64,000 nt of DNA from Bifidobacterium breve (lineage in GTDB: Bacteria; Actinomycetota; Thermoleophilia; Solirubrobacterales; Solirubrobacteraceae), in NCBI GenBank assembly GCA_945878865.1, contig CAMCUD010000004.1:124001-188000 (forward strand). The letters are read 5' to 3'. Below the pieces are notes generated by a model that saw nothing but the letters and a program-made list of their open reading frames with translations, made no database searches and was not told where the DNA came from. Every line of letters begins with the position of its first letter. Positions within the stretch are counted from its first letter, which is position 1. Made by a program: the position numbers and the translations under genes. Of the stretch, positions 3,495-24,141 are shown in pieces.

Positions 3495-3920
3495 TCAGCG
3501 GACGGCGTCCGCGTGCGCGCTCAGCCCGTAGATCACGAGGACCAGCAGGATGATCGCCACGAGCGCGAAGATCGGCAGGACGGGGAGGACGAGCACCCAG
3601 AAGATCGCGCCGATCGTCGCCAGGACGAGGCCGACGACCGGGCCGGCGGACGATCCCGAGAGCAGCAGGAACGCGGCGCCGCACTCCAGGACGCCCCAGA
3701 CGATCGCGACCCAGCCCCACAGCGTCAGGGTGCTGAACAGCACGCCGGATTCGGGCAGGTACTCCTTGTTGTCCAGGGCGCCGATGCCCCAGAGGACGTT
3801 CGCGGCGCCGGCGATGAGGAACAGCACGCCGGCGAAGGTGATCCAGCCGTGGCCGGACGGACGGGCGGTGGAGGCTTCCATGGTCCGATTCTCGCGGGCG
3901 ACGTCGCCGCCCTGCGTCAC
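3495..3920 (-). CDS. DUF7144-like membrane protein
   Basis: A small four-helix membrane protein of 128-141 residues. The core pattern, GWITFAGVLFLIAGAANVLWGI, then a polar loop with LTLWGWVAIVWGVLEC, then a third and fourth TM and a final ILVLVIYGL, is that of the actinobacterial DUF7144 family, whose function is unknown. Two starts are possible. GTG at 3920 overlaps the stop codon of the upstream transporter (GTGA), which would give translational coupling. ATG at 3881 begins just before the conserved part. I list the coupled start, but the first 13 residues are doubtful. It probably forms an operon with the AI-2E-family transporter upstream. Confidence 0.65.
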   Translation of the reverse strand: MTQGGDVARENRTMEASTARPSGHGWITFAGVLFLIAGAANVLWGIGALDNKEYLPESGVLFSTLTLWGWVAIVWGVLECGAAFLLLSGSSAGPVVGLVLATIGAIFWVLVLPVLPIFALVAIILLVLVIYGLSAHADAVR

Positions 3921-13633: not shown

Positions 13634-16519
13634 TCACTGGTTGGCGAGCCGCCGGAGGCCGATCTTCACGGTGCTCGTGCTCGATGCGCCGTCGGCGCCG
13701 GTCGCGGTGAGCGTGAAGATGGCTTGGCCCCCGGTGCCGCGCGTGCCGACGAGCTTGCGGATGATGCGCCGCTGGGCTTCGGTGGTGGCGATCTTCAGGG
13801 TGCGTGTCTGGCCGGCCGCGAGCGTGACGGTGATGGGCTTGAGGGTGACGCGGGTCTTGCCCTTGGCCCTGAGGATCGTGGCGATCTTCAGGGTGCAGGC
13901 GACCTGGCCGCAGCCGACCTTGACGGTGATCCAGCGCTTGTTGAGCAGGATCTGCCGGGACTTGGCGCCGCTGAGCAGCTGCAGCGTGGGCTTGGGCGGC
14001 GCCGACGCGGCGGGCGTCGACGCGCCGGGCACGACGACGGGTTGAGCGACGGCGAACCCGACGGTCGCAGTCGGTCCGGTCACGCCGGCACGGTTGATCG
14101 AGCGCACGCGGAACGTGTGGTCACCGTCGGCCAGCGGGCCGAGCGTCATGGGGCTCGCGCATGCCGCAAACGGCGCGTCGTCGACCGAGCAGGCGAACGT
14201 CGCGTCGATCCCGTCGCTGGTGAACGCCACGACCGGGGACCGCTCGCTGCTCAGGGCCGCGGGCGCGGTCGTGATCGTCGCCGTCGGGACCTTCGCGTCG
14301 ACCTTCGCCGCGGCGCTGGTCTTCGTGATCTCGACGTTGTCTGCCGCATCGGTGCTGCGGTAGCGCAGCCGCTCGCCATCGGTGAGGACGGGCTTCTTCG
14401 CCGGGTCGTACGTCGTGGTCGGGCCGGGGTTGCCGGCCGTGTCGACGATCTCGTACGTCGTGGCCTTCAGGCCGGAGCCGCCCGTGTCAGCCGCCGTCAG
14501 CGTCACCGTGACCGGCCCGGACTGGAACGCCCCGGGGACGTCATCGCTCGTGGTCGGCGCGGTGAGATCGACCTTGATCGTGACGTCCTTTGACGCCGAG
14601 GCAGGAAGACCGTCCTTCGACGAGGTGATCGTCGCGGTGAACGCGCCTTCCTTCGTCGGCGTGCCGGCGATCAGGCCGCCGTCGTCGATCGTCAGCCCGT
14701 CGGGCAGCGCGCCGGCGGTGACCGAGAACCCGCGCAGCGGCGTGCCGGTGAACTGGAAGCTGAACGCCTTGGCGCCGATCCACTCCGGCGGCGTGCCGCC
14801 GATCGTCGCCTTGACCTGCCCGCTGGCGTTCGCGCCCCAGCAGACGATGGAGCCGGCGGTCGTGACGACGCAGGTGTGCGAGCCGCCGGCCGAGATCTGC
14901 AGGGCGCTCGTCGCGCCGCCCGGAACAGTGGTGCGGCCGTCCGCGGCGGAGCCCCAGCACGTCGGCGTGCCGTCGGCCTTGATCGCGCAGCTGTGCACGC
15001 CGCCGGCGGTGATCGCGGTGGTCGCCCCGATGCCGGGATCGGCGGGCGCCTGCTGGTCGGTGTTCAGGCCGAAGCACGTGGCGGTGCCGTCGGCTTTGAG
15101 CGCGCAGGTGTGCAGCCCGCCGACGCTGATGCTCCTCACCGTCCCGATCGCGGGGTCGGGTGGTGCGTTGCCGGCGCCGTTGCTGCCCAGGCACCGGGCC
15201 AGGCCGCTCGTCCTGATCAGGCACGTGTTGAAGCTGCCGGTGGAGACCTGGGTCACCGTCCCGACGCCCGGGTCGGCGGGGGCGCGGCCCTGGCTGTTGT
15301 CGCCCCAGCACCTCGGCGTTCCATCGGTCCTGATCGCGCACGTGTGCAGTCCGTTGGCCGAGATCTGCGTGACCGTGCCGACGTCCGCCGGGATGGCCTT
15401 CTGCTGGTTGGCGTCGGAGCCCCAGCACACCGGCGTGCCGTTCGTCCTGACCGCGCACGAGTGAAAGACGCCCGCGGAGATCTGCGTGACGGTCCCGATG
15501 TCCGCGGGAAGCGTGGACTGTCCGTAGGTGTCGGCGCCCCAGCACGTCGGGGTGCCGTCGACCTTCACGGCGCACGTGTTCGACCCGCCCGCGTCGACCT
15601 GCGGGACCGAGACGGTGCCGATGTCGGCAGGCGGCGTCGCCCTGCCCGACGTGTTGTCGCCCCAGCACGTCGGCGTGCCGTCCGTCCGGATCGCGCACTC
15701 GAAGTCGCCGCCCGTCGTGATCTGGGTGATCGTGCCCAGGTCGGCGGGCGGCGGCCGGTGACCGAAGTTGGTGGTGCCCACGCACGCGGCGGTTCCATCG
15801 GTCGTGACCACGCACGTGAACCTGCGGCTCGTGGAGATCTGCGTGGCGGTGCCCAGGCCGGGAACGGCCGGGGCCTGGCCCCAGTCGTTGGTGCCCCAGC
15901 ACACGGGGGCGCCGTTCGACTTGATGGCGCACGTGCCCGTGTCGCCGGCGACGACCTGGGTCACCGTCCCGACGCCCGGGTCGGCCGGGGCCTGGCCGTT
16001 GCCGTTGTAGCCCCAGCAGGTGGGGGTGCCGTCGACCTTCACCGCGCAGGTGTGAAACAGCCCGGCGGAGATCTGCTTGACCCGGCCGACCCCGGGGTCG
16101 GCGGGCGCCTGGCCGAAGGGGAACTGCGCGCTGCCGCCCCAGCACGTGGGCAGGCCGTTCGTGCGGATCGCGCACGTGTGCTCGTTGCCGGCGCTGATCT
16201 GCGTGACGGTCCCCAGATCGGCGGGCACCGTGGCCTGTCCGGCGTTGTTGCGCCCCCAGCACACGGCGGTGCCGTCGACCTTGATCGCGCAGGTGTGCTC
16301 GCGCCCCGCGCTGATCTGCGTGACCTTGATGCCGACGGGCGGGGTCGCGCGGCCGTCGCCGTTCGAGCCCCAGCAGACCGGGGTGCCGTCGGTCTTGATC
16401 GCGCACGCGTGGGAGTCGCCCGCGGAGATGCGGCCGTCCTGCGGACCGAGCGCGCTCGCCGGCGCAGTGAAGGCCAAGAGCGCGAAGAAGAGTGAGAATG
16501 CGAACGAGGCAGCGCGCAT
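13634..16519 (-). CDS. Secreted protein with 14 RCC1-type repeats and Ig-like domains
   Basis: A 961-residue exported protein. The start at ATG 16519 gives a clean signal peptide (MRAASFAFSLFFALLAF, cleavage after ASA). It is followed by 14 consecutive repeats of about 39 residues with the form VTQISAG-x-HTCAIKxDGTPxCWGxNxxGQ, the RCC1/BNR-type propeller blade. Fourteen blades fit two seven-bladed propellers. Every repeat keeps a C-x9-C pair, so one disulfide per blade is likely outside the cell. C-terminal to these are a putative Ig domain (GTPLRGFSVTAGALPDGLTI), a second beta domain (DLTAPTTSDDV) and two more Ig-like segments. No LPXTG or lipobox is seen, so it is probably released or loosely wall-bound. 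RCC1 propellers bind proteins; the ligand here is unknown. Confidence 0.88.
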   Translation of the reverse strand: MRAASFAFSLFFALLAFTAPASALGPQDGRISAGDSHACAIKTDGTPVCWGSNGDGRATPPVGIKVTQISAGREHTCAIKVDGTAVCWGRNNAGQATVPADLGTVTQISAGNEHTCAIRTNGLPTCWGGSAQFPFGQAPADPGVGRVKQISAGLFHTCAVKVDGTPTCWGYNGNGQAPADPGVGTVTQVVAGDTGTCAIKSNGAPVCWGTNDWGQAPAVPGLGTATQISTSRRFTCVVTTDGTAACVGTTNFGHRPPPADLGTITQITTGGDFECAIRTDGTPTCWGDNTSGRATPPADIGTVSVPQVDAGGSNTCAVKVDGTPTCWGADTYGQSTLPADIGTVTQISAGVFHSCAVRTNGTPVCWGSDANQQKAIPADVGTVTQISANGLHTCAIRTDGTPRCWGDNSQGRAPADPGVGTVTQVSTGSFNTCLIRTSGLARCLGSNGAGNAPPDPAIGTVRSISVGGLHTCALKADGTATCFGLNTDQQAPADPGIGATTAITAGGVHSCAIKADGTPTCWGSAADGRTTVPGGATSALQISAGGSHTCVVTTAGSIVCWGANASGQVKATIGGTPPEWIGAKAFSFQFTGTPLRGFSVTAGALPDGLTIDDGGLIAGTPTKEGAFTATITSSKDGLPASASKDVTIKVDLTAPTTSDDVPGAFQSGPVTVTLTAADTGGSGLKATTYEIVDTAGNPGPTTTYDPAKKPVLTDGERLRYRSTDAADNVEITKTSAAAKVDAKVPTATITTAPAALSSERSPVVAFTSDGIDATFACSVDDAPFAACASPMTLGPLADGDHTFRVRSINRAGVTGPTATVGFAVAQPVVVPGASTPAASAPPKPTLQLLSGAKSRQILLNKRWITVKVGCGQVACTLKIATILRAKGKTRVTLKPITVTLAAGQTRTLKIATTEAQRRIIRKLVGTRGTGGQAIFTLTATGADGASSTSTVKIGLRRLANQ

Positions 16520-16618
16520 ACGGGGTACGACCGGAATTCGGAGCGGCGGACGGTACCCCACCGGGGCGCTGTATACAACCCGCTCTCCGAGGTCGAATCG
16601 CAGTCCCGCGTCTTCGGG

Positions 16619-17374
16619 TCAGGCAGGGTTCGGGATCCGCTCCGGCACCGGCTTGACGTTCGTCGCAAAGAGCCTGATGAGCGCCGCCCCCAACGCGAAT
16701 CCGCCGATGTGGGCGAAGTACGCCACGCCGCCGCCCCCGCCCTCCGGGCCGGTGAGCTCAAGCGACCCCAGCAGGATCTGCTGGCCGAACCACAATCCGA
16801 GCATGATGAACGCGGGGAGTTCGATGACGGTGAAGATGATCACGATGAAGATCAGCGTCACGACGCGCGCCCGGGGATAGAGCACCGCGTACGCCCCGAG
16901 CACGCCCGCCACGGCGCCGGACGCACCGATCATCGGCGCCGGGTCGTTCGGGTCCATCGCGACCTGGGCCGCGATCGCGGCGAACCCGCCGAGCAGGTAG
17001 AAGACGATGAACTTCAGACGGCCCATGCTGTCCTCGACGTTGTTGCCGAAGATCCACAGGAACAGCATGTTCCCGGCGAGATGCAGGACGCTGCCGTGCA
17101 TGAACATCGACGAGAACGGCGTCACCCAGGTGGGCGGCTCGCCGCTGGAGGGCTGCGCGCCGCACGCCAGCTGACTGCCCGCGAGGCGGCAGTGGTCGCC
17201 GTAGTTCCACAGCTCGTACGGGATCACGCCCCAGTTGACGACGAGCCCGTCCGGCGGCGCGCTGAACACGCCGCCGCGCTGCAGCACGAAGTACACGAGC
17301 ACGTTGATGACGATCAGCGCGATCGTGACGATCGCGGTGCGGTCCGTCGGGATGTTGTCCTTGAGCGGGATCAC
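16619..17374 (-). CDS. Rhomboid family intramembrane serine protease
   Basis: A 251-residue protein with six or seven TM segments. The catalytic dyad is S152 in GASGAVAG and H222 in AHIGGF, and the upstream LHLAGNMLFLWIFG segment supplies the oxyanion asparagine. Rhomboids cleave single-pass membrane proteins within the membrane; the substrate is unknown. GTG at 17374 (VIPLKDNIPT) is chosen because family members begin with this IPL+DNIPT block. An ATG at 17401 in frame would add nine residues, and its CATG would coincide with the start of the divergent gene. It lies head-to-head with the small gene starting at 17400. Confidence 0.9.
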   Translation of the reverse strand: MIPLKDNIPTDRTAIVTIALIVINVLVYFVLQRGGVFSAPPDGLVVNWGVIPYELWNYGDHCRLAGSQLACGAQPSSGEPPTWVTPFSSMFMHGSVLHLAGNMLFLWIFGNNVEDSMGRLKFIVFYLLGGFAAIAAQVAMDPNDPAPMIGASGAVAGVLGAYAVLYPRARVVTLIFIVIIFTVIELPAFIMLGLWFGQQILLGSLELTGPEGGGGGVAYFAHIGGFALGAALIRLFATNVKPVPERIPNPA

Positions 17375-17399
17375 GTTTCGCGCGAGGCTACCCGGCGCC

Positions 17400-17618
17400 A
17401 TGCCCCCTGTCGTCGACGAGTTCCTCGAAGCGATGCGCGCCGATGACCGCGAGCGCGCGAAGCTCCTGCTGCACCCCTACCTGCACTGGGGCCGGCACGA
17501 CGGGACGACGCTGCGCGGTCGGCGCAAGGTCCTCGCCATGCTGCAGGAGATGGGGGTGCCGGAGCGCCCGGCGTCCGTCGAGCTGCGCGACGGGCAGATC
17601 TACCGCTGGATCCCCTAG
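17400..17618 (+). CDS. Small NTF2/SnoaL-like protein
   Basis: A 72-residue protein (MPPVVDEFLEAMRADDRERA...) with the helix-strand layout of the start of an NTF2-like domain: a helix with FLEAMRADD, then LLLHPYLHWGRHDGTTLRGRRKVLAML, as in the SnoaL-like proteins. It is only about half the normal domain length, so it is either a minimal family member or a truncated one. It is divergent from the rhomboid gene and ends in a 4-base overlap with the convergent lipA gene. Confidence 0.6.
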   Translation: MPPVVDEFLEAMRADDRERAKLLLHPYLHWGRHDGTTLRGRRKVLAMLQEMGVPERPASVELRDGQIYRWIP

Positions 17619-18607
17619 GCGGTTGCGGCGACCGGGCCGACGCCCGGCTGGTCCTGCTTGACGTGCTCGTCGGCGTGGTAGCTCGAGCGCACGAGCGGCC
17701 CGGCGGCGATGTGGTCGAACCCCATCTCGTACCCCGCGCGCTCGATCTCGGCGAACTCGTCGGGGTGCCAGTAGCGGACGACCGGCAGGTGCTCGCGGGT
17801 CGGTCGCAGGTACTGCCCGATGGTGATGATCTGCACGTCGTGCTCGCGCAGGTCGTGCAGCGCGTCGAGCAGCTCGTCCATCGTCTCGCCGAGGCCGACC
17901 ATGAGGCCGGACTTCGTGTTGACGGCGTCGCCGCCCATCGCCTTGGCGTTGCGCAGCACCCGCAGGGAGCGCTGCCACGTCGAGCCGCGCCGCGCGACGG
18001 GGTACAGCCGCGGGACGACCTCGACGTTGTGGTTGAAGACGTCGGGCCGCTCGGCTATGACGGTCGCCAGCGGCATCTCGTGCCCCTGGAAGTCGGGGGT
18101 CAGGCACTCGACCTTGCAGTTCGGCGCCTGCGCGCGGATCTGCCGGATCGTCGCTGCCCAGATCCGGGCGCCCTTGTCCGGGAGGTCGTCGCGGTCGACG
18201 CTCGTCACGACCGCGTGGCGCAGGCCCATCCGCGCCACCGACCGCGCGACGCGTGCGGGCTCCAGCGGGTCGTTCCACGTCGGCTTGCCCGTCTTGACGT
18301 GGCAGAACCCGCAGCGGCGGGTGCACGTGTCGCCGAGGATCATGAACGTCGCGGTGCCGCGCTCCCAGCAGTCCCCGATGTTCGGGCACGCCGCCTCCTT
18401 GCAGACGGTGTGCAGCTCCTCGCCGTCGATGAGCTTGCCGAGCTCGCGGTACTTCGCGCCGCCGGGCGCGGGGACCTTGAACCAGCTGGGCTTGCGCGCG
18501 TTGAACGGCAGGACGTCGGCGCCGATGACCTTCAGCACGTCCATGCCGCCCGGGTTGGAGCGGCGGCGGGTCTGGAGCTTGCGGAGGGGCTCGGACTCGG
18601 TCGGCAT
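17615..18607 (-). CDS. lipA: Lipoyl synthase
   Basis: A 330-residue radical-SAM enzyme that inserts two sulfur atoms into octanoyl groups on lipoyl domains. Both iron-sulfur clusters are visible: the auxiliary cluster C69-x4-C74-x5-C80 (VCKEAACPNIGDC) and the radical-SAM motif C95-x3-C99-x2-C102 (CTRRCGFC). The C-terminal RSSYHA with its conserved serine, the auxiliary-cluster ligand, is also present. ATG at 18607 is preferred, 10 bases after a TAGTCT -10 box; an in-frame ATG at 18616 is too close to that box. lipB lies 1.4 kb upstream on the same strand, separated by two unrelated genes. Substrates include the E2 protein encoded at 22.8-24.1 kb. Confidence 0.96.
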   Translation of the reverse strand: MPTESEPLRKLQTRRRSNPGGMDVLKVIGADVLPFNARKPSWFKVPAPGGAKYRELGKLIDGEELHTVCKEAACPNIGDCWERGTATFMILGDTCTRRCGFCHVKTGKPTWNDPLEPARVARSVARMGLRHAVVTSVDRDDLPDKGARIWAATIRQIRAQAPNCKVECLTPDFQGHEMPLATVIAERPDVFNHNVEVVPRLYPVARRGSTWQRSLRVLRNAKAMGGDAVNTKSGLMVGLGETMDELLDALHDLREHDVQIITIGQYLRPTREHLPVVRYWHPDEFAEIERAGYEMGFDHIAAGPLVRSSYHADEHVKQDQPGVGPVAATA

Positions 18608-18664
18608 CGCCCTCATCAGACTACCCGCCGCCGACGGGGCGTCGGAGGCCGGGCGCGCTGGGGT

Positions 18665-19204
18665 TCACGTTCGGTCGTTCGCGCTGCCGACCACGACGCC
18701 GAACTCCGTGAGCATCTCCGTCACTGCTTCGCGGCTTCGCGACGCGCTGAGCTCCTTGCGCACCGCCTGCAGCTCGGCTTCAAGAGCTGCCTCCTTGGCC
18801 TTCAACGCGATCACCTGCGCCTCCGCGGCGTCCCTGGCGTCGGTCGCGGTGGTGAGGTCGTGCTGGGCATCCGACGCCGCCGTCCGCGACTCCGCATCCT
18901 TCAGGACGATCGTCGCGAGGGCGTGGAAGCGGCCACGCGACACCGAGCCGCGGGTGTAGATGTCGACGGCGAAGGCCGCGTAGACCCCGAGCACCACCGC
19001 GGCGACGATGATGGCCGCGGCGATGACCGTCGTCGGATCCTTCAGGCTGAGGTCGGTGCTCGCACCGAAGATGCCGGTGACGACGGCGGTGATCACCGCG
19101 ACGATCGGCGCGCCGAACTTCGCGATGTTCGTCGTGCTTGCGGTGATGGGCTCGCGCTGCTCCTTCAGCGCGTCTTGCGCCAGCTCGTTCCAGGACTCGG
19201 GCAT
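18665..19204 (-). CDS. Membrane protein with C-terminal coiled coil
   Basis: A 179-residue protein starting at ATG 19204, with GGGAGG 5 bases before it. Two TM segments (about residues 30-50 and 62-84) are followed by a long heptad-like helix with repeated Ala/Glu/Lys (SDAQHDLTTATDARDAAEAQ and KAKEAALEAELQAVRKEL). No enzymatic motif is seen. The coiled coil probably faces the cytoplasm and may drive oligomerisation. The gene lies between lipA and padR on the same strand. The region before its start contains a strong nested inverted repeat (19280-19350). Confidence 0.6.
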   Translation of the reverse strand: MPESWNELAQDALKEQREPITASTTNIAKFGAPIVAVITAVVTGIFGASTDLSLKDPTTVIAAAIIVAAVVLGVYAAFAVDIYTRGSVSRGRFHALATIVLKDAESRTAASDAQHDLTTATDARDAAEAQVIALKAKEAALEAELQAVRKELSASRSREAVTEMLTEFGVVVGSANDRT

Positions 19205-19279
19205 GCTCGCCTCCCAAGGTTGCGGACCGAGAGCGTCCCGCGGGCCAGGGCCGGCGTCATCCGTAGTTCCGTGCACAGG

Positions 19280-19350
19280 CCCCGCGCCCTTGTCCGGACC
19301 TGCGTCCAGTGATCAGTTGGACCTGATCGCTGTGGATCAAGGGCGCGGGG
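19280..19350. other. 71-nt nested inverted repeat, terminator or structured leader
   Basis: Outer arms CCCCGCGCCCTTG (19280-19292) and CAAGGGCGCGGGG (19338-19350) are perfectly complementary over 13 bases. Inside, CAGTGATCAG (19307-19316) and CTGATCGCTG (19323-19332) form a second stem with one mismatch and a 6-base loop. Read on the minus strand, the element begins 8 bases after the padR stop codon and ends 75 bases before the ATG of the coiled-coil membrane protein. It could end padR transcription or be a structured 5' leader. No T-run follows. Confidence 0.55.
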
Positions 19351-19358
19351 GTGGGGAG

Positions 19359-19949
19359 CTAGTCCTGCGCGAGGAGCCCGAACAGCTGCTTGCGCGCGCC
19401 GTCCAGGATCTCCGTCGCCTGCTTGATCTGCTCAGGCGTCCCCGCCTGGCCGACCTGCATGACCGCCATGCCGAGCTGGCGCGCGGCCTGCATGAGCGAC
19501 AGCGCGTCCTCGTTGACCTCGCCGCGGACGGTGTCCCACGGCGCGGTCTCGCCCGAGCGCTCCTCGGCGGCCTTCACGCCGTCCTCGGTGAGCTCGAACG
19601 TCTTCTTGCCGTCGCGCTCGGCCGAGCGGACGAGGCCCTCGTCCTCGAGGAGGGAGAGGGCGGGGTAGATCGAGCCGGCGCTCGGCGTCCAGACGCCGTT
19701 GCTGCGCTCTTCGATCGCCTGCATCAGCGCGTAGCCGGTCCGCGGCTCCTCGGCGAGGAGGCGCAGGATGGCGGCGCGGACGTCGCCGCGGCGGGCACGG
19801 GGCCCACGGCGGCCGCGCGGGCCGCCGGGGCCGAACGGCGGGCCGAAGCCGGGGCCGAACGGGTGGCGTCCGCGGTGCATCTTGTGCGCCGTCCACGGGC
19901 CGGGTTCGGCTTCGTGCATGGCGCGGTGGTGGTGGTGACAACGAGACAT
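19359..19949 (-). CDS. PadR family transcriptional regulator
   Basis: A 196-residue regulator. The PadR winged-helix domain covers residues 52-130, with RAAILRLLAEEPRTGYALM, the SIYPALSLLEDEGLV recognition segment and ELTEDG. A C-terminal helical region provides dimerisation. The N-terminal 50 residues are unusual: a CHHHH cluster followed by Gly/Pro/His/Arg-rich sequence (RGRHPFGPGFGPPFGPGG). Such His-rich leaders could bind metal or be disordered. ATG at 19949 is fixed by the GGAGG site 7 bases upstream. An AT-rich inverted repeat in its promoter region suggests autoregulation. The target genes are unknown; no obvious drug efflux gene is adjacent. Confidence 0.88.
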   Translation of the reverse strand: MSRCHHHHRAMHEAEPGPWTAHKMHRGRHPFGPGFGPPFGPGGPRGRRGPRARRGDVRAAILRLLAEEPRTGYALMQAIEERSNGVWTPSAGSIYPALSLLEDEGLVRSAERDGKKTFELTEDGVKAAEERSGETAPWDTVRGEVNEDALSLMQAARQLGMAVMQVGQAGTPEQIKQATEILDGARKQLFGLLAQD

Positions 19950-19987
19950 AAATGTCCTCCGAAATAGGTTTCGCTGTAGTGCGATGC

Positions 19988-20014
19988 ATATCGTTATATC
20001 GCATACAACGATAT
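19988..20014. promoter_or_regulatory. Candidate PadR operator
   Basis: ATATCGTT (19988-19995) and AACGATAT (20007-20014) are a perfect 8-bp inverted repeat with an 11-base spacer. The wider region also holds two copies of TATATCG. It is conspicuously AT-rich against its surroundings and sits 39 bases upstream of the padR start codon. AT-rich palindromes of this kind are usual PadR binding sites, so autoregulation is the simplest reading. Confidence 0.6.
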
Positions 20015-20049
20015 ATCGAAACATGTTGGCACGTGAACGCTCGGCGACG

Positions 20050-20763
20050 TCAGATCACGACGGACGGCGCGGAGAGCGACTCCAGCCGCGGCCGGCTCAC
20101 CAGCCGCTGGCGCAGGCCGAACGCCTCGGCGACCGCATGGGCGGTCCGCCGCGCCATGCAATCGAGTGGGTTGGCGCCGCAGTCCGCCCCGAGCTCCGCC
20201 GCCACCGACGTCATCCGCACGTCCATCCCGCACGGGCGGATCCATGTGAACGGATCAAGGTCGTTGACGACGTTTAAGGCGAACCCGTGCATCGCGTAGC
20301 CCCGCGACAGGTGCAGGCCGATCGACGCGATCTTGCGGTCCTCGACCCACACGCCGGTGAGGTTCTCCCGCCCGACGCTCTCGCGCCGGCGGGCGTCGAC
20401 GCCCTGCGCGGCGAGCGCGGCGATCAGCGCGTCCTCGAGCGTGTGGACGAACTCGTGCACCTGCTGCACGCGCATGATCGTGTAGCCGGTGAGCATGCCC
20501 GGGCCGTGGTAGGTGACGTGCCCGCCGCGGTCGACGTCGACGATGTCGATGCCTCGCTCGGCGTACCAGTCCGCGCCGAGCGGCAGCTCACCCTCCTCCG
20601 TGCGGCGGCCGCGCGTATAGACGGGCGGATGCTCGAGGAGGAGCAGCGTGTCGGGGATCCGGCCCGCCGCGCGCGCTTCGCGCAGGCGGGTCTGCAGCTC
20701 CAGCGCCTCGCGATAGTCGACGACGCCGGGCCGGCACACCCACAGCTCCGGGCGCGTACCCAT
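20050..20763 (-). CDS. lipB: Lipoyl(octanoyl) transferase
   Basis: A 237-residue enzyme that moves octanoyl groups from acyl carrier protein to lipoyl domains, the step before LipA. The signature RGGHVTYHGPGM is at residues 79-90. The catalytic pair is K144 (KIASIGLHL) and C178 (RPCGMD). ATG at 20763 lies 7 bases after a TACCCT box with no ribosome binding site, indicating leaderless expression. The gene is divergent from a membrane protein gene starting at 20800, and their promoters overlap. No lplA or lipM/lipL gene is visible, so LipB is the octanoylation route supported here. Confidence 0.95.
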   Translation of the reverse strand: MGTRPELWVCRPGVVDYREALELQTRLREARAAGRIPDTLLLLEHPPVYTRGRRTEEGELPLGADWYAERGIDIVDVDRGGHVTYHGPGMLTGYTIMRVQQVHEFVHTLEDALIAALAAQGVDARRRESVGRENLTGVWVEDRKIASIGLHLSRGYAMHGFALNVVNDLDPFTWIRPCGMDVRMTSVAAELGADCGANPLDCMARRTAHAVAEAFGLRQRLVSRPRLESLSAPSVVI

Positions 20764-20770
20764 GCCTCTG

Positions 20771-20793
20771 AGGGTACCCCGCCTCCGTACCCT
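20771..20793. promoter_or_regulatory. Overlapping divergent -10 boxes of lipB and the 20800 gene
   Basis: On the minus strand TACCCT (plus-strand AGGGTA at 20771-20776) ends 7 bases before the lipB start. On the plus strand TACCCT at 20788-20793 ends 6 bases before the ATG at 20800. Only 11 bases separate the boxes, so each promoter's -35 region would fall on the other gene's -10 or start region, and polymerase binding should be mutually exclusive. Confidence 0.5.
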
Positions 20794-20799
20794 GAAGTC

Positions 20800-21408
20800 A
20801 TGGCCGTGCAGCTCCCCGATTCGATGCGCCGGCTGCGCTGGCGGCTGCGCGGCGCGTGGCTCGGGCCGGCGTTCGTCGGGCTCACGCTGTTCGACACCGT
20901 CCTGATCCGCATCCTGCCCCTCGCCGGGGAAGGCAAGACGGCGTGGTTCTCGGCGTTCCTGCTCTCGGCGACGATCAACCTCATCGTGGTCGCGGCGCTC
21001 GGGCAGATCCTCGGGTGGCTGCTGCGACGGCGCCGGCCGGACCTGCCGAAGGTCGTCGCCGACAACTACGCGGGCACGGCTCTGCTCTTCGGCGTCACGC
21101 TGGCGTTCCTCGGGTTCGGGCTGCTGCACCGCCCCGACGTCAACCATGAGCTCGACGCCGAGCGGACCGCGATGGCCACAGGCCGCGACTACCTCGCCCG
21201 CAACGCGCCCGGCGCCTACCACCAGGGTGTCGCGCGCAGTGACATCTACCGGATCGACCGGGACCTCTATCGCGTCTGCGCACCCGGCGCCGACGGCCGC
21301 CGCGCGTGGTGCGTCATCGTCTCGACCGACACCGAACCGCCCGGCGTCAAGGAGGACGTCAGCCGCGAGCCCAACGCCTCGCTCGACGGCGTGACCGGCC
21401 TGCGCTGA
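20800..21408 (+). CDS. Membrane protein with C-terminal extracytoplasmic domain, unknown
   Basis: A 202-residue protein with an N-terminal basic segment (RRLRWRLRGAW), three TM segments (about residues 20-40, 47-70 and 90-108) and a soluble C-terminal domain of about 90 residues holding two cysteines 11 residues apart (VCAPGADGRRAWC). The cysteines may form a disulfide if the domain is outside the cell. No family is recognised. It is divergent from lipB and is followed 25 bases later by a GAP-family gene that has its own -10 box. Confidence 0.6.
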   Translation: MAVQLPDSMRRLRWRLRGAWLGPAFVGLTLFDTVLIRILPLAGEGKTAWFSAFLLSATINLIVVAALGQILGWLLRRRRPDLPKVVADNYAGTALLFGVTLAFLGFGLLHRPDVNHELDAERTAMATGRDYLARNAPGAYHQGVARSDIYRIDRDLYRVCAPGADGRRAWCVIVSTDTEPPGVKEDVSREPNASLDGVTGLR

Positions 21409-21433
21409 CCGGCGCCCTCGCTACCTTCGCGCC

Positions 21434-22108
21434 ATGGGCTCCCTGCTGCCCACCATCCTGCCGCTCGCGCTCGGCGCGGCCGTGAGCCCCACGCTCGCGG
21501 CGCTCGTCATCGCCGTGCTCGCCAGCGGAAAGGAGGGCCTGCGGCGGGCCGTCGCGCTGACCATCGGCGCGTCGATTCCTCTGATCCTCATCGCGGTCGT
21601 CGTCCTGCTGACCTTCCATGCGGCCGGGGTCGCCGAAGCGGGTCCACGCCACAAGAAGGTCGACGGGATCATCGACCTCGTCGCCGCCGTGCTGCTCGCC
21701 TACGTGGCGTTCCGCGCACTGCAGCCGCCCAAGACCCCGCAGGAGAAGCAAGCCGAGCGGGCCGAGCGCGCCCCCGGCGGTCCCGGCCGCTACGTCGCGC
21801 TGGGCGTGGGCATCATGGTCGTGAACTTCAGCACGCTCGCGCTCTTCGTCCCCGCGATGAAGGACATCGCCCGGGCCAAGGACGTCGGCGCGATCGGCGA
21901 AACGCTTGCCGCGGCGTTCGTCATTGTCATCGCGCTCATCCCGGCGTGGGTGCCGGTCGCGCTGCGTGCGGCGTTCCCCGAGCGCGCGCAGGAGATCCTC
22001 AAGCCCCTGGGCGTGTGGATGCACGACCATCAGCGCGCGCTGGGCGGCTGGGTCTCCGCGGTGTTCGCCGCGTACCTCGCCGTCAGGGGCGTGCTGGAGC
22101 TGCGCTGA
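21434..22108 (+). CDS. GAP family protein (Sap/LysE-like transporter)
   Basis: A 224-residue protein with six TM segments in two groups of three, separated by a charged loop (KTPQEKQAERAERAPGGPGR). The pattern LPLALGAAVSPTLAALVIAVLASG and the second-half GRYVALGVGIMVVNFSTLALFVPA match the GAP/Sap family, which includes the mycobacterial sulfolipid-1-addressing protein and is related to LysE exporters. It probably exports a lipid or small solute, but no substrate can be named. A TACCTT box lies 6 bases before the ATG. Its 3' end overlaps the convergent DUF3159 gene by 26 bases. Confidence 0.8.
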   Translation: MGSLLPTILPLALGAAVSPTLAALVIAVLASGKEGLRRAVALTIGASIPLILIAVVVLLTFHAAGVAEAGPRHKKVDGIIDLVAAVLLAYVAFRALQPPKTPQEKQAERAERAPGGPGRYVALGVGIMVVNFSTLALFVPAMKDIARAKDVGAIGETLAAAFVIVIALIPAWVPVALRAAFPERAQEILKPLGVWMHDHQRALGGWVSAVFAAYLAVRGVLELR

Positions 22109-22751
22109 CCGGCGGCGTGCGGATCAGCAGCCACGACAGGTAGATCCCGACGGCGAACAGCGGGACGCCCATCGCCGTCTTGGCGATGCCGAGCGCGAAC
22201 ACCGCGCCGGCGAGGTAGAGCGGGACCTGCACCAGCAGGCGCAGGCTGAACAGCCCCACCCAGATCCAGCTCGCCTTGCTGTAGCGGCTCATGCGATCGG
22301 GGTCCTCACGCCACTCGGTGCCGCGGCCCGTCGCGGTCTCGACGATGACGCCGATGAGCGGCCAGCGCACGATGATCGAGATGAGATAGCCCAGCGCGTA
22401 CCCGGCGTTGAGCAGGAGGCCCGGCAGGAAGAAGTCCTCCGCCTTGCCCGTGCGCGACACGACGAACGCGCTGAGCGCCAGCCCGCCGATGCCCGCAAGC
22501 GCGAACTGGACGGTCTCCTTGCGCGCGATGCGACCGATGGCGAAGAGCACGCCGATCGCGGCGGCGATGATCGCCGATGTCGTCGCCGTCTGGCCGGCGA
22601 TCGAGTAGGCGATGACGAAGACGACGGCGGGCGCCGCAGACTCGGCGATCCCGAGCGGGCCGCCGACCGCCTCGTGCAGCGCGGGGCCGGGGCCGGGGTC
22701 GTCCTCGTGCGTCGACTGGACGAGCGGATGGTGGTGCGGGTGCTCGCTCAT
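22083..22751 (-). CDS. DUF3159 domain membrane protein
   Basis: A 222-residue protein with a His-rich N-terminus (EHPHHHP) and six TM segments. The pattern with GGPLGIAESAAPAVVFVIAY, FALAGIGGLALSAFVV, then EDFFLPGLLLNAGYALGYLIS and the charged TEWREDPDRMSRY segment is that of DUF3159, an actinobacteria-specific family of unknown function. It starts 25 bases downstream of the E2 gene's stop on the same strand and is probably read from the same transcript. Functional ties to E2 are not expected. Confidence 0.85.
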   Translation of the reverse strand: MSEHPHHHPLVQSTHEDDPGPGPALHEAVGGPLGIAESAAPAVVFVIAYSIAGQTATTSAIIAAAIGVLFAIGRIARKETVQFALAGIGGLALSAFVVSRTGKAEDFFLPGLLLNAGYALGYLISIIVRWPLIGVIVETATGRGTEWREDPDRMSRYSKASWIWVGLFSLRLLVQVPLYLAGAVFALGIAKTAMGVPLFAVGIYLSWLLIRTPPVSAAPARP

Positions 22752-22776
22752 GCGGCCTGGATGTTCGCAGGCGAGC

Positions 22777-24141
22777 TCAGAACGCCAGCGCCAGCGGCTG
22801 CTCGAGCAGCTCGCGCACCCGCCGCAGGAACACCGCGGAGTCGGCGCCGTAGAGGATGCGGTGGTCGCTGGCGAGCGTCATCGCCATGACGTGGCCGGCG
22901 ACGATCTCACCGTTGCGGACGACCGCCTTCTCGGTCAGGCCGCCGACCGCGAGAATTGCCGACTGGCCCGGGTTGATGACGGCGGTGAAGTGCGCGACGC
23001 CGTACATCCCGAGGTTCGAAACGGTGAACGTGCCGCCGGAGACCTCCGGGGGCGTGATCGTGTTCTCGCGCACCTTGGCGGCGAGCGCGCGCGCCTCGCG
23101 GCCGATCTCGCCGAGCGACTTCTCGTCGGCGTCGAAGATCACCGGGACGACGAGCGACTCGGGCGCGGCAACCGCGATCCCGACGTTGATCCGCCCGTAC
23201 TGCTCGAACGCGCCGTCCTTGTAGGCGGCGTTCACGCGCGGGTGGTCGCGCAGCGCGAGCGCGCAGGCCTTGACCACCATGTCGTTATAGGACGGGGGCG
23301 GCGTGTCGCCGGCCACCGCCTTGAGCTGCGCGCGCAGCTCCACCGCGGCGGACATGTCGACCTCGGTGGTGACCTCGAAGCTCGGGATGGTCGCGCGGGA
23401 TTCGGCCATGCGCCGGGCGATGACCTGCTGGGAGCGCGACGGCTCGATCGTGGTGATGTCGCCCCGGTTGGTCCCGCGCTCGGTGACGGTGCCCGCAGCG
23501 GCAGCGGCAGCGGCAGCGGCGGCGGCAGCGGCCGGCGCCGGGCTCGGCTCGGGCACGGCCGGAGCCGGAGGTGCTGCTCCCGGCTGCGCGGCCTCGACAT
23601 CCGCGCGCACGATCCGCCCGCCCGGCCCGGTGCCGGTCACCGAGCGAAGGTCGACCCCGCGGTCTTGGGCGACCCGGCGCGCGACGGGCGACGCCTTGAT
23701 CCGCTCGCCGTCTGCGGCGGGAGCGGGAGCGGGAGCGGGAGCGGGTGCGGGTGCGGGCGCCGGCTCGGGCGGGCGCGCCGGTTCCTCGACGGCAGCCGCG
23801 GCCGCCTCGACCGGCGGTGCGGTCGGCTGCCCGCCGGCGGCGCCTTCACGGTCATCGACCGGGGCCTCGGTGGCCGCTGGCGCCGCGCCGTTCCCGCTGG
23901 GCGATTCGCCCTCGCCGAGCAATCGCGCGATGACCTCGCCGATCGGCAGCGTCGTGCCTTCCTCGGCGACGATCTCCAGGACGCCGTCGGCGTCGGCCTC
24001 GTAGGTCATCGTCGCCTTGTCGGTCTCGATCTCGGCGATCTCCTCGCCGCGCGCGACCTGATCTCCGGACGCCTTGAGCCAGCGGAGGATGGTCCCCTCC
24101 TCCATGGAGTCCGAGAGCCGGGGCATCACGATGTCGGGCAC
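22777..24141 (-). CDS. pdhC: 2-oxoacid dehydrogenase E2 (dihydrolipoamide acyltransferase)
   Basis: A 454-residue E2 core protein with one lipoyl domain (residues 1-80; the lipoylated lysine is K42 in ETDKATM), a long Ala/Pro linker, a peripheral-subunit-binding domain (SPVARRVAQDRGVDLRSVTG), a second Ala/Pro linker and the catalytic domain. The active-site histidine is H427 in DHRILYGAD; Tyr in place of the usual Asp is the form known from chloroplast and cyanobacterial E2 proteins. It would transfer acetyl groups to CoA in a pyruvate-type complex with the E1 genes at 31.3-33.4 kb and E3 at 43-44.5 kb. The start is GTG 24141, 7 bases after a TACGCT box. The acyl specificity is inferred. Confidence 0.9.
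   Translation of the reverse strand: MPDIVMPRLSDSMEEGTILRWLKASGDQVARGEEIAEIETDKATMTYEADADGVLEIVAEEGTTLPIGEVIARLLGEGESPSGNGAAPAATEAPVDDREGAAGGQPTAPPVEAAAAAVEEPARPPEPAPAPAPAPAPAPAPAADGERIKASPVARRVAQDRGVDLRSVTGTGPGGRIVRADVEAAQPGAAPPAPAVPEPSPAPAAAAAAAAAAAAAGTVTERGTNRGDITTIEPSRSQQVIARRMAESRATIPSFEVTTEVDMSAAVELRAQLKAVAGDTPPPSYNDMVVKACALALRDHPRVNAAYKDGAFEQYGRINVGIAVAAPESLVVPVIFDADEKSLGEIGREARALAAKVRENTITPPEVSGGTFTVSNLGMYGVAHFTAVINPGQSAILAVGGLTEKAVVRNGEIVAGHVMAMTLASDHRILYGADSAVFLRRVRELLEQPLALAF
23494..23530. repeat. CAGCGG-type hexamer repeat coding an Ala linker
   Basis: A short tandem GCAGCG/GGCAGC hexamer tract encodes a run of alanines in the linker of E2 between the subunit-binding and catalytic domains. 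Such tracts can change length by slippage, and linker length is tolerated in E2 proteins. Confidence 0.6.
23720..23760. repeat. GGGAGC-type hexamer repeat coding an Ala-Pro linker
   Basis: About five GAGCGG units followed by GTGCGG units encode the (Ala-Pro)n linker between the lipoyl and subunit-binding domains of E2. It is coding microsatellite sequence, not an intergenic repeat. Confidence 0.65.

Follow-up and report, generated by a model that had tools for sequence, protein, structure and literature searches.

A probable terminator-like hairpin without a U tract at the 3' end of a padR gene in a GC-rich genome

The mycobacterial RNA polymerase reportedly requires a U tract, to judge from the title of one study. 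In the portions of the literature drawn on here, Mycobacterium tuberculosis is described as having few strong termination sites (PMC10937400), while Term-seq of Streptomyces clavuligerus gave more structured 3' ends lacking U (353) than U-rich ones (182), the former being proposed by the authors to be I-shaped terminators or Rho-dependent ends (PMC8269248). The same source, as excerpted, supplies the term 'I-shaped' and its link to GC-rich genomes, and gives short loops (4-8) as optimal and typical of structured 3' ends (PMC8269248). Termination units built from hairpins clustered within 80 nt of the stop codon have been proposed from 13 genomes, U trails not being required according to the sections of that work used here (PMC8355165).

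The element described here, an inverted repeat of 71 nt read on the minus strand, was confirmed at positions 19280-19350 of the window (the whole stretch of DNA analysed, 64,000 nucleotides in length). A sequence-only reading of the window had described a 13-bp perfect outer stem around a 10-nt stem with one mismatch, starting 8 bases past the stop codon of padR and ahead of the next gene on the same strand. The description is borne out: the outer arms (19280-19292 and 19338-19350) are 13 nt long, 100% complementary and 45 nt apart, the inner arms (19307-19316 and 19323-19332) are 10 nt long and 90% complementary (one mismatch), and 8 nt separate the padR stop codon (19359-19361, minus strand) from the outer stem. 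The RNA of the minus strand is predicted to form a three-way junction (-48.4 kcal/mol) made up of the 13-bp outer stem, a 3-bp closing helix and two hairpins; the third stem (GGAC/GUCC) and the closing helix are seen in the predicted fold and were absent from the earlier description. The features of the locus are as follows:

19359-19949, minus strand: padR coding sequence, 196 aa, stop codon within the coordinates, alternative upstream starts exist (Pfam PadR, PF03551, E 1.3e-19 on the 221-aa ORF; homologues in 23 other genomes)
19338-19350, minus strand: 5' arm (on the RNA) of the 13-bp outer stem (repeat analysis and predicted fold)
19334-19336, minus strand: 5' side (UCC) of the 3-bp helix closing the three-way junction (predicted fold only)
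19308-19331, minus strand: first inner hairpin, GAUCAG/CUGAUC and two more pairs past a mismatch, the second stem of the sequence-only reading (repeat analysis and predicted fold)
19296-19307, minus strand: second inner hairpin, GGAC GCAG GUCC (predicted fold only)
19293-19295, minus strand: 3' side (GGA) of the 3-bp closing helix (predicted fold only)
19280-19292, minus strand: 3' arm (on the RNA) of the outer stem, followed by CCTGTGCA, without a U tract
18665-19204, minus strand: downstream 179-aa gene in the padR-lipA slot (gene caller; relatives not found)

When folded with its flanks, the element was more stable than shuffled sequences on both strands (z = -4.06 for the minus strand and -4.19 for the plus strand). 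The value for the 71 nt alone (z = -8.24) is inflated, as the segment had been cut to the repeat. For the 45-nt interior the score was z = -2.80, with 5 of 200 shuffles folding equally well.

On the minus strand the genes are arranged in the order lipB-like (20050-20763), padR, the element, the 179-aa gene, lipA-like and rhomboid, where lipB and lipA are names given here for Pfam matches to LplA-B_cat and Radical_SAM/LIAS_N. The 179-aa gene starts 75 nt beyond the element with an ATG at 19204, preceded by GGGAGG, and was accepted by a codon-score gene caller trained on its own genome. A Pfam match was not found for it; only the gene itself was recovered among 61 genomes and none in the loci of the two congeners, nor did a further search of genome contigs, which may leave out its own genome, give a confirmed relative. 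By eye, the word GGTAGTCTG at about 18620-18635 of the window (GGTAGGCTG in congener G002) is common to all three congeners, shortly ahead of the lipA start. It resembles a promoter -10 word that may leave lipA with a very short leader or none, and hints at a promoter of lipA's own.

The element is probably the terminator-like hairpin at the 3' end of the padR transcript. RNA polymerase would read through padR and, 8 nt past its stop codon, the RNA would fold into the 13-bp GC-rich stem on a branched interior. The stem might then release the polymerase directly, as a U-less (I-shaped) terminator, or, once Rho has released the transcript, it might block 3' exonucleases and so fix the 3' end; either route would keep padR apart from whatever fills the padR-lipA slot. 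We infer that RNA ends at the element, and likewise that it does so by one of these routes. The sequence-only reading had offered the ending of padR transcription as one option, and this is the best supported of its proposals, given where the element lies, how enriched such stems are at gene ends across the genome, and that each congener has a perfect stem in the corresponding position.

A canonical intrinsic terminator was not found, the tail directly past the stem (CCTGTGCA) being devoid of a U tract, and a scan of 14001-24000 for the U-tailed terminator consensus gave 0 sites on either strand (2.7 expected from shuffles). With U-less (I-shaped) intrinsic terminators the element shares a strong, stable, perfect GC-rich stem soon past the stop codon without a U tract, a type abundant at the gene ends of its own genome. 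It differs from them in that 45 nt, branched and themselves folded, stand between the arms in place of a short loop, and in that release is here something we infer. A stable U-less stem near the presumed RNA 3' end is also the likeness to the 3'-end stabilising hairpins of Rho-terminated transcripts treated in part of the S. clavuligerus paper (E. coli, PMC8269248). The termination units outlined in the sections used of PMC8355165 likewise group multiple hairpins at most 80 nt from the stop codon, but those at padR are nested in one outer stem and not placed side by side.

Gene ends were surveyed for stems with a gene caller written for this analysis, over 1,641,724 of the 4,962,415 bases of the genome (33%). 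Perfect stems of at least 10 bp in the 85 nt past the stop codon occurred in 53 of 128 convergent gaps of at least 40 nt (one stem shared by a convergent pair being counted twice), 34 of 244 co-directional gaps of at least 80 nt, 16 of 198 shorter co-directional gaps (25-79 nt) and 32 of 398 convergent gaps below 40 nt. The control figures were 11 of 513 for operon-like junctions, 21 of 1023 for random places and 11 of 286 for regions upstream of divergent genes. Among the 87 stems of the convergent (at least 40 nt) and co-directional (at least 80 nt) classes, three were followed by at least five T in the next 8 nt and 84 by fewer. Stems of at least 13 bp were present in 8 of the 244 co-directional gaps (at least 80 nt) versus 2 of the 1023 random places. 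From these counts and the empty U-tailed scan, many gene ends of this genome carry GC-rich stems that lack a U tract, a class into which the padR element falls. Nested interiors are found at other gene ends too: stems of at least 10 bp were recorded at 169 gene ends, some within coding sequence; 50 of them enclose at least 14 nt, and 28 of these 50 contain an inner perfect stem of at least 5 bp. Among the gene-end stems of at least 13 bp, that of padR is the only one to enclose more than 26 nt (45 nt). The inner A/T word (TGATCA) had been thought to set the element apart from terminators elsewhere, which is a weak argument: in a separate gene-end stem count over 463,124 bases, with other class limits, further stems had such words (e.g. 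TGTGAATCCGGATTCAC and ACGTTGTTCCCGC). The element is well formed but ordinary, as hairpins of this sort are numerous at the gene ends of this GC-rich genome.

A search at E ≤ 1e-12 identified homologues of padR in 24 of 61 genomes (own genome included); a second, at E ≤ 1e-40, gave matches in 50 among 146 family members, with loci taken for the best 30 of the 50 matching genomes. The proteins of the two congeners (G001 and G002) are 84% and 86% identical to PadR in one comparison and 79-80% in another, and the order lipB-padR-slot-lipA-rhomboid is kept in both. The content of the slot differs: the 179-aa ORFan here, a 444-aa ORF in G001 (L055, 5991-7325) and nothing in G002 (L056, ~3675-3765). 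Past the padR stop codon, G002 has a perfect stem of 13 bp around 16 nt (at 14 nt) and G001 one of 14 bp around 4 nt (at 11 nt), both unrelated to the element in sequence. When the 150 nt past the stop codon were aligned among the three congeners, 145, 139 and 264 of 300 shuffles scored as well, and therefore covariation could not be counted. Upstream of padR, palindromes CGATATATCG and CGTTATATCG at 19992-20018 are recognisable in both congeners and are probable sites of PadR self-regulation; as CGATATATCG is recognisable in all three, a conserved signal is detectable at such a distance. For conserved pairing in relatives, whose absence the sequence-only reading had made part of its refuting condition, the outcome is mixed: the sequence is not conserved, while a stem of 13-14 bp stands at the same place in both congeners.

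The comparison was extended to 46 loci of padR homologues (L010-L033 and L057-L078, own included; L034, a second match of 34% identity in G022, was left out). A stem of at least 10 bp was present in the first 85 nt in 19 of the 46 versus 18 of 920 random places from the same loci, and one of at least 13 bp in 8 of 46 versus 7 of 920. In five of the 19 stem-bearing loci (L057, L060, L061, L069 and L070) the stem overlaps the following coding sequence, as judged by eye.

The evidence that the repeat exceeds chance is mixed. The element is the only pair of perfect arms of at least 13 bp, at spacings up to about 80 nt, in the 64-kb window, while 6 of 10 simulated windows (second-order Markov) held at least one perfect pair of that length. 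Over 1.64 Mb of the genome, arms of at least 13 bp with 27-60 nt between them numbered 10 across 1,516,010 bases of coding sequence and 2, the element included, across 125,714 bases between genes; the coding rate predicts about 0.8 in the intergenic DNA examined. Imperfect repeats of at least 11 nt form 79 pairs in the window, and the element is outside the 25 longest listed. The arms alone are therefore not rare, given the similar pairs in simulated windows and genome counts; it is the location and the whole fold that stand out.

Several points count against a terminator, namely the missing U tract, the long interior, the chance occurrence of 13-bp arms so far apart, and the 27 of 46 padR-homologue loci and 210 of 244 co-directional gaps that are without a stem of at least 10 bp, together with the five padR-homologue stems that overlap coding sequence. 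That the element is a functionless inverted repeat arisen by chance in DNA of 72% GC is unlikely. The simulated windows, the two intergenic pairs set against the 0.8 predicted and the unconserved sequence would all agree with such an origin, but the element sits 8 nt past a stop codon, its interior is predicted to fold more stably than 195 of 200 shuffles, and each congener has in that place an unrelated, equally perfect stem, against a random rate of 2 in 1023 for at least 13 bp per 85 nt. A structured leader or conditional terminator, whether of riboswitch type or bound by a protein, with the three-way junction as sensing part and the 179-aa gene as its target, is considered very unlikely. 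The predicted junction and the position of the element 75 nt upstream of that gene's start codon on the same strand make regulation of the downstream ORFan possible in its anatomy, and nothing favours it: the element has no Rfam match and no convincing sequence relative among 60 genomes, and congeners that do not have the 179-aa gene still have a stem after padR. A comparison of 18600-20100 with 4227 Rfam families up to E 5 returned four weak matches, all lying outside 19280-19350 and far from the gathering score. Some match to the element at E ≤ 1 was given by 53 of the 61 genomes, the best besides itself (31 nt, 84%, E 0.012) being noise. Still less credence is given to a lineage-specific structured RNA that would both end padR and control the ORFan of the slot; it would be a conditional terminator standing before an insertion slot with different content in each of the three species.

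Equally improbable is a palindrome acting at the level of DNA, either as the remnant of a mobile element or repeat or as a site to which PadR or some other protein binds. The symmetric inner word GATCAG/CTGATC would suit it, as would the presence in the same genome of another repeated nested palindrome at gene ends. The element, however, is single in its genome (G000) and absent from both congeners, no direct repeat is apparent at its borders by eye, and the PadR-operator-like palindromes lie upstream of padR at 19992-20018. The sequence-only reading had suggested looking for further genomic copies, and none were found: the arm pattern occurs once in G000 and not in G001 or G002, blastn gave one match in G000 at E ≤ 1, and copies of the arms with up to one mismatch were not present elsewhere in the window. 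A REP element or MITE was rejected on the single copy and on flanks in which no target-site duplication was seen by eye; a PadR operator inside the element, on the upstream position of the operator-like palindromes; and an integron attC site, on outer arms without the core word. Overall, the earlier reading stands in part: its proposal that the element ends padR transcription is favoured, and the special protein- or RNA-based role it also raised is unsupported, there being no Rfam match, no sequence conservation, and operator-like palindromes upstream of padR.

Read as a terminator-like hairpin, the element clearly exemplifies the U-less hairpins that stand at gene ends in a GC-rich lineage, possibly a deep actinobacterial line to judge by gene content and GC. 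Such a hairpin can hold its position behind padR though its sequence differs wholly between congeners, and a missing sequence match is therefore no argument against a terminator. Should the genome-wide pattern reflect termination, these gene ends would offer a good system for studying release without a U tract in actinobacteria.

A separate nested palindrome repeat, with arms CGAACGTCGA and TCGACGTTCG enclosing 26 nt with an inner TGTCGC/GCGACA stem, was observed in 15 copies in G000, 3 in G001 and 0 in G002 (reversed control pattern, 0). Beyond these, its arms were found among the 61 genomes only in G013, where the interior is different. Copies include G000:C1:50198-50243 and 182357-182402, C3:39220-39265, C6:155151-155196 and C9:124373-124418 (L080-L088). 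Of the eight copies that fall in the part of the genome covered, six lie 5-17 nt past a stop codon, one separates divergent genes and one falls within a called ORF. This is possibly a spreading, genus-specific terminator-like repeat, and is distinct from the padR element. A second type of nested palindrome at gene ends, GGGTGTGACCC and GGGTCACACCC around 25 nt, was seen at G000:C4:71557-71620 (L038) and on G000:C6 just below 118243 (L145), and possibly represents a second repeat family.
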